Origin: Leptolyngbya sp. BL0902
GTDB lineage: Bacteria; Cyanobacteriota; Cyanobacteriia; Phormidesmidales; Phormidesmidaceae
Assembly (NCBI RefSeq): GCF_016403105.1
Contig: NZ_CP046157.1
Coordinates: 1 to 64,000 of the forward strand
DNA length: 64,000 bases
Direction: 5' to 3'
Below the pieces are notes generated by a model. It had not been told where the DNA came from. It saw only the letters and a list, made by a program, of their open reading frames with translations, and did no database searches. The position numbers and the translations under genes were made by a program. Below are positions 239 through 4,412 of this stretch, piece after piece (the first letter of the stretch is position 1; each line of letters opens with the position of its first letter).

Positions 239-399
239 TCACCCGTGCTTGATGCGGATGCGGTAGTGCCACCCTAGTTGCGTCGTCATCATCATCACGT
301 CGGTGTGGACGAAGCCTCGGTCAGCATGGCGAAAGTGGGTGGATTCAAGGTTGAACCCCCGGGTTTTGAGGGCAGAAAACAAAGTCTCAATGCGCCAGC
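239..399 (-). pseudogene. IS4-type transposase, C-terminal fragment
   Basis: On the minus strand this encodes WRIETLFSALKTRGFNLEST and then about 30 more residues to a stop after RIKHG. That is the region starting at the catalytic Glu of IS4-family DDE transposases. It is the continuation of the fragment at 2943-3722; the two were separated by the serine-recombinase element. Deleting 400-2957 restores an unbroken reading frame. The family normally continues well past this stop, so the distal end is also lost, consistent with no recognisable IS terminus beside the ATPase fragment. Confidence 0.8.
385..399. repeat. Left attachment core (15-bp direct repeat)
   Basis: TCTCAATGCGCCAGC is identical to 2943-2957. 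Read on the minus strand it encodes the W-R-I-E codons of the IS4 transposase signature Y-x2-R-x3-E-x6-K. This is the left hybrid site of the recombinase element. The direction of the repeats and the frame restoration on excision support site-specific insertion rather than chance. Confidence 0.85.
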
Positions 400-465
400 C
401 ATAATGCCCCCATAAATCGGTCATCGACTCAGTATCCGAAGATCAGTCTGGCGGGTTTACAGCGA

Positions 466-681
466 TTGGTTGACGTTGTCGCCAAAATAGAGGCAACCGA
501 ATCACCCTCAGAGGACGCTCTACCATGCCCGAGCGATACGAGCCCCCCCGTCTGCTTGCCCGCTGAATCAGAGTCGGTGGGCACGCCTGCCCCACCCAAA
601 TCGCCAACGTCTAATTTGTGTGGTCAGCCAGATGTTGGAGCAGCACCTGAGCGCCCAATCCAAGCCGGAGGTGCCTCATGA
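466..681 (+). CDS. Small protein coupled to the serine recombinase, unknown function
   Basis: This 71-residue reading frame starts at TTG 466. It ends in a TGA that overlaps the ATG of the recombinase (ATGA at 678-681), an arrangement typical of translational coupling. The frame is also open upstream, where it reads PKISLAGLQRLVDVVAK without an ATG, so the true start could be earlier at an alternative codon. The protein is rich in Pro, Ser and Glu, with no recognised domain. Its position inside the element suggests an accessory role such as a directionality factor or regulator. That is inference from context only. Confidence 0.45.
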   Translation: MVDVVAKIEATESPSEDALPCPSDTSPPVCLPAESESVGTPAPPKSPTSNLCGQPDVGAAPERPIQAGGAS

Positions 682-2819
682 CTCCTCCCACTAATCCTGG
701 ATTCGGGCTGTCAGACAAAATTCAATGGCCGCATCTCGACCGATTAGCTGTGGTGTATGTGCGCCAGTCCACGCTGCAGCAAGTGAGCGACCATCAAGAA
801 TCCACCCGTTTACAATATGGCTTAGTAACGCGAGCCGAAGCGCTGGGCTGGCCCCCTGAGCGCATCCTCACCATTGACGAAGATTTAGGGAAATCCGGCA
901 GTAGCGCGGCAGGGCGTTCGGGCTTCCAACGACTGGTCAGCGAAGTGGGGCTGAACCACGTCGGTTTGATTCTGGGCGTTGAGATGTCGCGGTTGGCCCG
1001 CTCCTGCAAGGACTGGCATCAGCTGCTGGAAATCTGTGCCCTCTTCGGCACGTTGATAGCGGATCTCGATGGCATCTACGACCCGAGCCAGTACAACGAC
1101 CGGTTGCTGTTGGGCTTAAAAGGCACCATGAGTGAAGCCGAATTACATCTCCTGAAACAACGGATGATGCAGGGAAAACGGACAAAGGCCCAACGCGGCG
1201 AGCTGGGGTTCAACGTTCCCATTGGCTACATTTGTCGTCCATCGGGGGAAGTGCAATTTGACCCGGATGAGCAGGTGCGTCAGGTGGTGCGATTAATCTT
1301 CCGCAAATTTGAGGAATTAGGCACCCTCAATGCCACCCTACGGTATTTGGTCAGTCATGACATTCAAGTGGGGGTGCGGGTGTTGTATGGCCTCGACAAA
1401 GGGGAGTTGCAGTGGCGACGTCCGAATCGCCCGACCTTACAAAATCTGCTAAAAAATCCCGCCTATGCCGGAGCCTATGCCTACGGACGTAAACAAGTCG
1501 ATGCCCGCAGAAAGCAAGCCGGTCGTCCCCATACTGGCTGTGTCGTCAAACCCCCTGAAGAGTGGCTGGTCTTAATCCAAGACCACCACCCGGCCTACAT
1601 TTCCTGGGAGCAGTACCAGCGGAATGGGGCTCAACTGAAAGCGAATCGGAATCGAGCGGATGAACTCGGTCATGCGCGAGAGGGAGTGGGTCTTTTGAGT
1701 GGGCTTCTGGTGTGTGGGCGATGTGGATGCCGTCTGCAGGTTCAATATCACCGGGCAGGCGGCTATCACCGCTATGTCTGCAATCGGGCGATGAGCGATT
1801 ATGGGGGCCAATTTTGCCAGCACGTGTCGGGCACCTGTCTGGATGAGTATGTCACGGGACAAGTGCTGCGCGCCTTGGAGCCGGCTGCTTTAGACCTTTC
1901 CTTGGCGGCTGCCGCTCATCTGGAGCAAGACCGAGCCGAGCTTGATATTCTATGGCAACAGCGATTGGAGCGGGCTCAGTTCGAAGCCGATAGAGCCCAG
2001 CGGCATTACCAGTTCGTTGAGCCGGAAAATCGCTTAGTCGCCCGACAACTGGCTCAAGCATGGGAAGCTGCATTGCAGGCTCAGCACACCCTGCGGGACG
2101 ACTACCAGCGGTTTTGTCATGACCAACCGAAAGGCCTCTCGCCTGACGAAAAGCAGCAGATTCAGCAACTCGCAGACAGCCTGCCCCTACTCTGGGCCGC
2201 GCCCACGACCACGATGGCGCAACGCAAAGACGTGATTCGACAGATGATTGACGGCATCCTCATGACCGTGGTGGGCGATACCGAACAGGTACAGGTGACG
2301 ATTAAATGGGCGGGCGGCGATTCGAGTCAGGCTCAGATCACTCGCCCGGTCGCCAAATGGACTCAACTGAGTGACTACCCGCAACTGTGTCAACGGCTTG
2401 AACAACTGACCCAGGCCAATCTTACCACCCGCGACATCATTGACTGCTTGCATCAAGACGGGTTTCGCCCCCCAAAGCGTCGTCAAACCTTCAATCCAGA
2501 AATGGTGCAAACGTTAATTCGCAAGCTTGGCTTAAGATCTCACGCAGCGACTCCGGCAAAAGCACCGTTGCCGCCCCCCGAATGGTGGTTGCCGGACTTG
2601 GCTGCCAAACTGGACATGCCGACGATGACCCTCTATAACTGGGTGCAACGAGGGTGGGTGAAGGCCAGACAACCGGCAGAACCCCCTAAACACTGGATCA
2701 TTTGGGCCGATGAGGCCGAACTGGAACGCCTCAGAACTCACCGTCAATGCCCCACCCGGGAGATCCTCAGGCAACGCTGGCAAGGGGAAACACCCAGCAT
2801 TGCTTGTCCTCCTGACTAG
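678..2819 (+). CDS. Large serine recombinase (site-specific integrase)
   Basis: The 713-residue protein has the large serine-recombinase layout. The resolvase catalytic domain (about residues 10-160) carries the nucleophile motif VYVRQS and the conserved EMSRLARS. A recombinase domain (about 170-300) follows, then a zinc ribbon with CGRCGCRL and a later C-x-N/C pair (about 345-395), and a long Gln/Arg-rich helical region. A C-terminal helix-turn-helix-like segment contains LAAKLDMPTMTLYNWV (about 640-680). Family members cut and rejoin DNA at attP/attB through a phosphoserine bond. It sits inside its own 2.56-kb element, and all expected catalytic features seem intact, so it may be active. 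The ATG at 678 overlaps the upstream stop. Confidence 0.92.
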   Translation: MTPPTNPGFGLSDKIQWPHLDRLAVVYVRQSTLQQVSDHQESTRLQYGLVTRAEALGWPPERILTIDEDLGKSGSSAAGRSGFQRLVSEVGLNHVGLILGVEMSRLARSCKDWHQLLEICALFGTLIADLDGIYDPSQYNDRLLLGLKGTMSEAELHLLKQRMMQGKRTKAQRGELGFNVPIGYICRPSGEVQFDPDEQVRQVVRLIFRKFEELGTLNATLRYLVSHDIQVGVRVLYGLDKGELQWRRPNRPTLQNLLKNPAYAGAYAYGRKQVDARRKQAGRPHTGCVVKPPEEWLVLIQDHHPAYISWEQYQRNGAQLKANRNRADELGHAREGVGLLSGLLVCGRCGCRLQVQYHRAGGYHRYVCNRAMSDYGGQFCQHVSGTCLDEYVTGQVLRALEPAALDLSLAAAAHLEQDRAELDILWQQRLERAQFEADRAQRHYQFVEPENRLVARQLAQAWEAALQAQHTLRDDYQRFCHDQPKGLSPDEKQQIQQLADSLPLLWAAPTTTMAQRKDVIRQMIDGILMTVVGDTEQVQVTIKWAGGDSSQAQITRPVAKWTQLSDYPQLCQRLEQLTQANLTTRDIIDCLHQDGFRPPKRRQTFNPEMVQTLIRKLGLRSHAATPAKAPLPPPEWWLPDLAAKLDMPTMTLYNWVQRGWVKARQPAEPPKHWIIWADEAELERLRTHRQCPTREILRQRWQGETPSIACPPD

Positions 2820-2864
2820 ACGGTTTGACCGGTATAAACTCAAATTTTTGACTGGAGAAGACCC

Positions 2865-3044
2865 ATGGCAAAGCACACACCTTCGATTCCACCACCTCAG
2901 CATCCGCCTGAAGATGACTATGGGGGTATTGAGGCTGGAGTATCTCAATGCGCCAGCGTAGTCGGTAGTCGGCGAGGGCCGTCTGAGGGGCGTGGTGGGT
3001 GGCGAGAATCAGGAGTTCGCCATCGGCGAGGCGGGTGGCGATGA
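2865..3044 (+). CDS. Possible 59-residue ORF spanning the right attachment core
   Basis: An ATG at 2865 follows GGAG and starts MAKHTPSIPPPQHPPEDDYG. The frame runs through the right 15-bp core and ends at 3042-3044 inside host sequence. The first 26 codons lie in the element and the rest are antisense to the transposase fragment, so the C-terminus would depend on the insertion site. There is no homology that I recognise. It may be a real small gene whose 3' end is exchanged on integration, or just a chance frame. Confidence 0.25.
   Translation: MAKHTPSIPPPQHPPEDDYGGIEAGVSQCASVVGSRRGPSEGRGGWRESGVRHRRGGWR
2943..2957. repeat. Right attachment core (15-bp direct repeat)
   Basis: Identical copy of 385-399. 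Upstream, 2931-2942 separates it from the inverted arm TATGGGGGTATT. The transposase frame on the minus strand runs from DYRLRWRIE into this core and then breaks, which marks the exact junction of the element with its target. Confidence 0.85.
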
Positions 3045-3722
3045 CGTAGACCCGTCGGCCCCAGACCCATCGTTTTCCCGATAGAATCCGCGTTTCCCCG
3101 GCCCTGAGACTGGCAAAGACCCGTTCTCCCGCTTGGCGAGACTTCCCAGAACGGGAGCTCATCTTATCGCTATGGCGCAACCGGAGACGAAAGGGCAGGG
3201 TCTTGGGCAACAGCAGATAACTGCACCACTCCTTACCCACAAACTCTCGGTCGCCCGTCAGACACCGCACCTTGGCATCTGGAAACACCCGCTCAAAGCG
3301 CTCCAGGAGGTCGATGCGCTCGTCGCTGTTACTGTTGCCCCGCTTGTCCAGCATCGTCCAGAACAGGGGAAGGCCACCCCTTCATGGACGATCCCCAGCA
3401 TTAGGATGTTGAAATGAACCGAGCCAAATGACCAATTCGTGCGGTCGAGGCTCAAGGTCCAGGGTTGAGGAATCTGGCTCCAACTCACCACGGCCTGCGC
3501 AATATCATTGAAATCCACCGGAAACTCCCGCAAAAACCGTGTGAGTCGTTTGTAACTCGACTCTGGTTTAGCCCGATTGGCAAACACCGACGACAGTTTA
3601 TCTAGGTTCACCGTCTCCACCCGGAACATGGCCACCAGAAACAGCGCTAGAAACGTCAGTCATCTACCGTGCCACGGTAGATGAGCACGCAGGGCCGATT
3701 GAAGTCGGTTAATCTGAGTCAT
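2943..3722 (-). pseudogene. IS4-type transposase, N-terminal and catalytic part (degenerate)
   Basis: Read on the minus strand from an ATG at 3722 (MTQINRLQSALRAHLPWHGR). Three lesions are visible. A TGA replaces codon 21 (3660-3662). A one-base deletion in a C run (G run 3366-3369 on the plus strand) shifts the frame between GIVHEGVAFP and TMLDKRGNSNSDERIDLLER. The serine-recombinase insertion falls at 2957. The protein has the first catalytic Asp in TLSLDRTNW and the second in RCLTGDREF, and the signature DYRLRWRIE with the third (Glu) residue at the att core. Losing all three features of a working gene marks it as dead. Confidence 0.85.
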
Positions 3723-3889
3723 GGGGAGGAAGCATAGGTCTGTGGTAATTCCTAGCTCACCTCCCTATTCCTCCTTCTGTCAACCCTCTACTGGACAGGC
3801 TTGCAGCCCCTCACCTCAAGTTTTGTCCCTGTACCGTGGGACAACCCATATCCGAGTTCTATACCTCTGAAATGGGATAGACTGAGACT

Positions 3890-4412
3890 ATGCCTAGACC
3901 CCTCCATCTCGAACCTCATTTTTCGGTTGATGAATTGAAAGCCCGCTATCGGGCCAGTCACGACCCCGTTGAAGCTCGCCGCTGGCACCTACTGTGGCTT
4001 ATTCACAAGCCCATGGCGCTGACGGAGGCGGCCAAAGCGGTGGGCTTGAATTATGACTATGCTCGCTCCATCGTGACGGCCTATAACCGCGAGGGTGCCA
4101 ATGGAGTACGCAATCGTCGCAAAGATTCGCGCCCTCACCAGCCTCGGAGTCTGCTCACGGCGGAACAACAACAGGCGTTGGCCGCTCGGTTAGAAATGCC
4201 CCCTGACGACAATGGGGTTTGGAATGGGCCGAAGGTGGCTCAGGTGATGGCGGAGATTTTGGGGGTGCCGAAGGTGTGGCCACAGCGAGGGTGGGATTAT
4301 CTCAAGCGGTTAGAGCAATCGTCGCACGTGCCCCGTCCTCGGCACCGTAAAGGAAATCCAGAGACCCAGGAGGCTTAAAAGACTCCCGGAGCGTAAAGAC
4401 AAACTACAGTGA
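3890..4412 (+). pseudogene. IS630-family transposase remnant (N-terminal half)
   Basis: An intact 162-codon frame (3890-4378) encodes the helix-turn-helix N-terminus of IS630-type transposases, including LTEAAKAVGLNYDYARSIV and GVPKVWPQRGWDYLKRL. The frame ends at a TAA in GAGGCTTAAAAGA. Skipping one base continues as KRLPERKDKLQ to a stop at 4410-4412, the expected family continuation of the QEAFKK type. The DDE catalytic half is absent downstream, so this is a truncated copy whatever the nature of the frameshift. The IS ends were not identified. Confidence 0.75.

Follow-up and report, generated by a model that had tools for sequence, protein, structure and literature searches.

The fdxN element carries XisF, a large serine recombinase, and interrupts a gene that its excision can restore. 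Other large serine recombinases are multi-targeting: in their clade, according to the accessible part of the report by Durrant et al. (2022, PMC10083194), one recombinase uses many target genes, with a conserved target around a dinucleotide core, and 63% of the clade carries a DUF4368 domain. Serine integrases of streptococcal integrative and mobilizable elements (IMEs) integrate within conserved genes of another mobile element and so disrupt them, and 12 of 16 target the genes traG, maff2 and snf2 of integrative and conjugative elements (ICEs) (Coluzzi et al. 2017, PMC5357655, accessible sections). The mobile elements of the IS607 family are also moved by a serine recombinase without target duplication (PMC6188088, in the sections at hand). 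Here we have analysed the first 64,000 nucleotides of contig NZ_CP046157.1 of Leptolyngbya sp. BL0902 (the window; genome G000, contig C3), which contain a mobile element of 2,558 bp (389-2946) whose core gene encodes a large serine recombinase of 713 amino acids (aa). From comparison of its copies and relatives we consider it very likely that it belongs to a group of autonomous elements that insert, without target duplication, in DDE transposase genes at the GA with which the catalytic-Glu codon starts, because of the position and frame of the insertions, the empty sites, repeated insertion, and the use of the same column in several families of insertion sequences (ISs).

The recombinase matches PF00239, PF07508 and PF13408, all above their cut-offs and in the order resolvase, Recombinase, zinc ribbon, as in large serine recombinases. 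R29, Q30 and S31 are invariant in 13 aligned relatives, and we take the active-site Ser to lie in the YVRQS stretch of this class. Its PDB matches at E 0.001 are three distinct sequences, namely two forms of YokA and one resolvase-family domain. XisF (NF041201) is the best NCBIfam model, with 114.3 bits against an equivalog cut-off of 375, but the fdxN element has one developmental gene as its target, whereas elements of the window's type lie in transposases in many places. Most of the clade of Durrant et al. bears DUF4368, which was not among the Pfam matches of our recombinase at E 0.001, an absence that does not exclude it from the multi-targeting (TndX-like) clade; the accessible part of PMC10083194 does not mention a transposase catalytic motif as a shared target. 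The streptococcal IMEs differ in that their targets are conserved genes of one ICE superfamily and in being mobilizable by conjugation (PMC5357655, same sections). In IS607 a DNA-binding domain stands ahead of the catalytic domain (PMC6188088, same sections), whereas here the resolvase domain occupies residues 24-175 of 713, and the enzyme differs further by its zinc ribbon and long conserved target. The multi-targeting recombinases and the ICE-gene-targeting integrases are thus the closest precedents. The top matches of literature searches, outside subscription journals and preprints, included no earlier report of a serine recombinase whose attachment sites are transposase catalytic codons, and this use appears new.

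In the window, a direct repeat of 15 bp, TCTCAATGCGCCAGC (385-399 and 2943-2957), bounds the element, as the original prediction had stated, and a single serine-recombinase open reading frame (ORF; 678-2819, plus strand; Resolvase, Recombinase and Zn_ribbon_recom in Pfam) lies between its copies. Joined on the minus strand, the flanks read DYRLRWRI followed in frame by ETLFSALKTRGF, which restores Y-x2-R-x3-E-x6-K, also as predicted; this signature of IS4-type elements contains the E of the DDE triad (PMC2266710, accessible part). The element thus splits an IS4-type transposase at its catalytic-Glu codon. The target IS is already decayed, with its N-terminal part in two frames (ORFs 3258-3635 and 2767-3354) and a shortened C-terminal part. 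The genome encodes the recombinase twice, with identical protein sequence, in the window and at C1:3773331 (L060; L numbers denote surveyed loci). The two elements have 3 differences in 2,558 bp (99.88% identical), and their IS flanks are 89.5% identical on the right (784 bp) and 81.7% on the left (71 bp). Rejoining the L060 flanks gives an intact frame of 367 residues, and the signature reads DYRLRWRIETLFSALK in the window's rejoined target and DYRQRWGIETLFSALK in that of L060. The right repeat of L060 is TCTCGATGCCCCAGC, where only 4 bp are repeated exactly. We therefore rejected the 15-bp repeat as the crossover core: the identity in the window would reflect the likeness of the element's end, which mimics TGG-NNN-ATN-GA of the target, to that particular target. 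The prediction thus placed the site correctly at the Glu codon and made its core too long, GA being the better candidate.

Uninterrupted homologues of the rejoined L060 protein were found in four of the 96 genomes searched (G020, G016, G026 and G050), covering 355 of 355 residues without stops at 78-81% identity. Since the rejoined L060 site (900 bp) aligns gap-free over 897 bp (77% identity) to the uninterrupted G020 locus, the target site is present once before insertion. The IS hosting L060 seems, by eye, to be bounded by imperfect inverted repeats, GTACGGGGACAAAAGTTG and CAAGTTTTGTCCCTGTAC, with GGTCTTGTC on both sides.

Leptolyngbya sp. PCC 7375 (G027) carries recombinases of this group that are about 75% identical to that of the window. 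Among the nine near-identical elements read first, six split an IS4_2-type transposase (rejoined as RWGI plus EQFFKDCK) and one a Tn5-like transposase (RWHV plus EEFHKLLK), so that in-frame ORFs rejoined at the Glu codon represent three different IS4-type transposases in two genomes. L044 has only a Tn5-like right flank and abuts another element head to head on its left, and L039 lies outside any recognisable transposase. At about position 3,570 of L044, in recombinase orientation, the two elements, of different subfamilies, are joined left end to left end with no host DNA between them. Except on the left side of L044, left ends read target-TC followed by AATGCGCCAGCC, and right ends GTATC-TC followed by target. 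All 11 copies found of the IS4_2-type IS are interrupted at the same base, by the element or its decayed remains (L163-L166 show the right junction only). IS copies that are 1.7-12% apart hold elements that are 99.9-100% identical. Thus, the IS flanks of L038, L163 and L166 have 14, 18 and 33 differences from L040 in 840 bp, against no mismatch in the last 1,500 bp of the element (one gap in L163), and the Tn5-like pair L037/L044 is 88.0% identical in the IS against 99.93% in the element. Because diverged IS copies hold near-identical elements, their comparison indicates that insertion into them was repeated.

The group extends well beyond Leptolyngbya. One scan of genome contigs with the alignment of 13 relatives gave 239 relatives, of which the best 80 were taken (19 of them from PCC 7375), and tblastn gave 515 plasmid records with relatives; junctions were surveyed in these 80 genome loci, 6 plasmid loci and 4 loci from relatives. 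A strict two-sided junction rule selected 29 of the 90 loci (24 without five near-copies from one genome), against 0/63, 0/61, 0/56, 0/53, 1/90 and 0/90 with shifted-anchor decoys. One-sided junctions were found on the left in 47/90 and on the right in 42/90, against 1-4 and 0-4, respectively, with shifted decoys. An antisense control gave 7/90, 10/90 and 3/90, and was rejected as a clean control because it contains real insertions in the opposite orientation. In many loci, element ends taken from pairwise blastn alone varied by tens of bases, and they were not used. When both orientations were considered and the sequences were inspected by eye, 57 loci (65 with eight PCC 7375 near-copies) had one or both junctions at a W-x-(I/V/L/M)-E-like codon, with both sides placed in 31 of the 57; the recombinase is antiparallel to the transposase in 47 and parallel in 10. 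According to record titles, insertions at this codon span Cyanobacteriota, Actinomycetota, Pseudomonadota and Chloroflexota. The remaining 25 loci comprise 12 without a target and 13 with another reading: L070 is off-target, L104 is IS5-like by eye, L082, L083, L084, L087, L132 and L144 are in IS21, and L056, L068, L139, L145 and L148 are described below. In a recombinase tree of 87 rows target labels cluster, with 14 changes for IS4/701/1634 against a shuffled mean of 28.7 and 8 for IS5 against 15.7; labels were partly given by eye, the off-target L070 being entered as IS4 and L068 as IstB though it is IS630, and the long branch of L128 is an artefact of a wrongly chosen ORF.

NCBIfam models were applied to 40 of the 44 right-flank fragments (L081, L111, L126 and L140 were left out), and 36 matched a transposase family: IS5 in 13, IS4-type in 12, IS701-type in 10 and IS1634 in 1. 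Eighteen of these matches exceed the curated cut-off, the rest being short fragments with E <= 9e-5; L066, L089, L095 and L122 had no NCBIfam match. For each model the best alignments stop at one column in every locus: column 221 of 258 in IS5_3 (13 loci), 321 of 363 in IS701 (7), 281 of 405 in IS4_3 (4), 237 of 340 in IS4_2 (3), 290 of 332 in IS4_1 (3), 319 of 412 in IS701_3 (3), 328 of 449 in IS4_4 (2) and 385 of 483 in IS1634 (1). The left fragments were mostly silent in Pfam (6/20 matched), the matches including rve_2, aligned from its first column, for L134 (IS3-type), and Dimer_Tnp_Tn5 for L073 and L102. The proposal that the recombinase has adopted a conserved transposase motif as its bacterial attachment site (attB) is thus supported by relatives, which occupy this codon in transposases of IS4 type as well as in those of IS5, IS701 and IS1634.

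The target half of the site, from 44 distinct right junctions, reads (C82)(G95)-N-T100-G89-G89-NNN-(A/G)-T-N-GA, and the other half, from 44 distinct left junctions, R-NNNNNN-T77-T80-Y with A93 at +22 (numbers are percentages). These bases match the codons of R-W-x-(I/V)-E-x-x-F plus the K of the signature, and the element ends form a near-palindrome in which TGG and CCA are mirrored around GA. Across the core of 32 two-sided loci (one of them, L100, doubtful), the exact repeat is 2 bp in 11, 3 bp in 8, 4 bp in 2, 5 bp in 6, 6 bp in 4 and 11 bp in 1. Hence the repeat spans 2-6 bp in 31 of 32 loci and surrounds GA, with which the Glu codon begins; in 11 loci GA, which the scan demanded, is all that is shared. 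The scan further required T at -1 and R at +3 and restricted the residue at -3 to W, F, R, C, L or Y, so that these columns of the site are partly built in.

We propose that the attachment site is read mainly from bases that R-W-x-(I/V)-E can hardly change, (C/A)G-N-TGG-NNN-(A/G)T-N-GA. The element would carry a near-palindromic attP, with TGG and CCA arms around the central GA (the predicted circular attP is GTATC-TC-AATGCGCC), and recombination between attP and attB at GA would insert the 2.6-kb element without duplication. Interruption of the transposase at its catalytic residue is expected to silence the IS copy concerned, precise excision would bring the transposase back, and one enzyme taking several IS types would let the element spread among dispersed IS copies. 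Catalysis by this recombinase, a 2-bp crossover, loss of transposition and the ability to excise are what we infer by analogy; the 'many dispersed targets' and 'little harm to the host' of the original prediction may hold in the same sense.

Several points weigh against insertion aimed at the catalytic codon. GA, the T at -1 and the R at +3 were built in by the motif rule used to choose the fragments. The 24-bp consensus has 133 matches in 38 genomes against 62 for a reversed control, about two-fold, and 17 of 30 sites read by eye fell in transposases; the motif is thus enriched in transposases, not exclusive to them, and a scan for it was rejected as a sufficient marker of such genes. L092 and L095 are only weakly assigned among the 57 loci; L092 has no named target and L095 no family match, and the DQVWHI end of L095 presumably resembles the first Asp of an integrase core. 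No target was found for L054, L055, L094, L100, L113, L124, L125, L130, L131, L141, L143 and L146, 12 of the 90 loci. In L080, L108 and L109 (perhaps also L081 and L111) the two flanks look like parts of different kinds of transposase (in one example IS701 on the right, left types being read by eye), which would fit an exchange of transposase halves through recombination between elements. In L164 (10 mismatches and 3 gaps in the IS, 1 mismatch and 2 gaps in the element) and L165 (5 mismatches against 2) the contrast of IS with element is small. Gene conversion between elements could mimic part of the overall contrast; it would itself need prior insertions at the same base. Finally, L039 is a precise insertion in a site without TGG, in which ATC-GA is kept and the four spanning frames have no Pfam match. 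We rejected L039 as a chimera of two flanks, since G040 contains the empty site, in an uninterrupted region that aligns with the joined flanks at 93% over 3,317 bp. This insertion is real, so that target recognition is strong, not absolute, and the expectation that homologous elements avoid unrelated targets fails in part, through this PCC 7375 copy and through relatives that use motifs of IS21 IstA/IstB or of group II intron reverse transcriptase.

The off-target insertion and the modest excess of the consensus would fit a multi-targeting serine recombinase of a generic kind, whose site is short and weak and which can use many GA sites, the bias to transposases being survivorship, as ISs are numerous and their loss is harmless. 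Such multi-targeting enzymes are known (PMC10083194, accessible part). This explanation is unlikely in our opinion, since each transposase family is cut at a single column despite the many GA dinucleotides in such genes, and since the 11 copies of one PCC 7375 IS are interrupted at the same base.

It is still less probable that just one or two insertions of the element were followed by multiplication through the IS host, with the composite moving as a unit and transposase supplied in trans. The PCC 7375 composites do have terminal repeats of their own (CTTAAAGGGTGACA) and 9-bp duplications, which differ at L040-L043, the four loci with both IS ends read (GTACGGGAG, ATACCCGTC, GTCCTCTCC and GGCTTGGAT). 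L040, L042 and L043 show no difference in 840 bp of IS (right side) or in 2,500 bp of element, so that joint movement with the IS is also likely and may explain part of the copy number. Pure co-amplification is insufficient, as IS copies 1.7-4% (L038, L163, L166) or 12% (L037 against L044) apart hold virtually identical elements, and different IS families are struck at the same codon. Equally improbable is a reversible switch in which excision restores the transposase and regulates IS activity, like heterocyst-gene excision elements: exact insertion, the restored frame and XisF as best model would suit it, but some host ISs, the window's included, are decayed or shortened, neither G000 nor PCC 7375 yielded an uninterrupted copy of the occupied ISs, and no directionality factor was identified.

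Insertion at the catalytic-Glu codon may be one case of a wider habit. The further cases come from few loci read by eye, and are leads rather than a rate. A second PCC 7375 subfamily (the six IS21 loci named above) splits an IS21 transposase at HYYS-(M)-SVPY, where GA does not fall in frame; in L082, the one checked, the part on the right gives a match to NF033546, that on the left to the C-terminal domain of the Mu transposase. Next to L139, L184 and L191 IstB is broken off at its end, L145 and L148 lie inside IS3/integrase-core genes, and L187, L056 and L188 each have the N-terminal part of a group II intron reverse transcriptase on one side and the C-terminal part on the other. L068 stands behind an IS630 transposase ending in LPPYSPDLNPIE-D (NF033545 to 269/299). 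According to annotation, two tandem recombinase genes stand directly behind an IS630 transposase in L192, a Rhodovastum plasmid. We hold it probable, with clearly less confidence than for the insertion site itself, that an entire and widespread clade of these recombinases forms a guild of hyperparasites, in which the attB of each lineage is conserved motif DNA of another mobile element's enzyme, recognised through codon-invariant bases that let one enzyme find and silence many different transposons. The targets would be the catalytic Glu of IS4, IS5, IS701, IS1634, IS3 and IS630 transposases, the IstA/IstB motifs of IS21 and the group II intron reverse transcriptase.

Features of the element and its target in the window
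Feature	Position	Strand	Remark
Target transposase, C-terminal remnant (E-TLFSALKTRGFNLESTHF...)	298..388	-	Shortened further on left; 81.7% to flank of second copy, 71 bp
Left core dinucleotide TC (GA of Glu codon on IS strand), attL side	387..388	.	Comparison of copies
Mobile element, 2,558 bp	389..2946	+	3 mismatches to copy at G000:C1
Putative element-borne attP half; minus strand GGGGGCATTATGGCTGGCGCATT, mimics target W-R-I codons	389..411	-	Arm conserved among relatives
Upstream small reading frame 1 (ISLAGLQRLVDVVAK...)	442..681	+	ATGA overlap with recombinase start; start position approximate
Run of 7 C separating two conserved halves of upstream reading frames	543..549	+	
Second conserved half (WARLPHPNRQRLICVVSQM...), +1 frame	578..694	+	Stop at 692-694
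Large serine recombinase, 713 aa	678..2819	+	PF00239, PF07508, PF13408
Putative other attP half (GGGGTATTGAGGCTGGAGTATC)	2923..2944	+	Inverted-repeat partner of left arm
Right core dinucleotide TC, attR side	2945..2946	.	
Target transposase, N-terminal part (...DYRLRWRI), frameshifted	2947..3770	-	

Two conserved halves, IGxxGLLRLV... and W..LP..NRQRL..LLSQMLE, lie upstream of the recombinase (window 442-694). The second is in the +1 frame relative to the first in 48 of the 54 sequences in which both were found, a count that takes in near-copies; in five others they share one frame, and one is otherwise arranged. The halves often flank a run of 6-9 C, and with 8 C they are in one frame in L082, L087 and L132, with 9 C split in L083, L084 and L144. 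Programmed slippage, phase variation or two overlapping genes could each account for this arrangement. Beside the decayed IS, an ORF of 162 aa (3890-4378, plus strand) matches winged helix-turn-helix models (HTH_33 and others), and is perhaps, we assume, the first ORF of an IS630-type element.

What would such an element mean for its hosts? If our interpretation is correct, it is a mobile element living inside other mobile elements and aimed at the one part of their enzymes that cannot mutate away, an example of a DNA-binding enzyme that tracks a protein motif via codon-invariant bases. It would account for many split transposase genes and would offer a source of site-specific recombinases with predictable sites. 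As a parasite of parasites that breaks its hosts, it would act as a natural check on insertion sequences across several phyla of bacteria.

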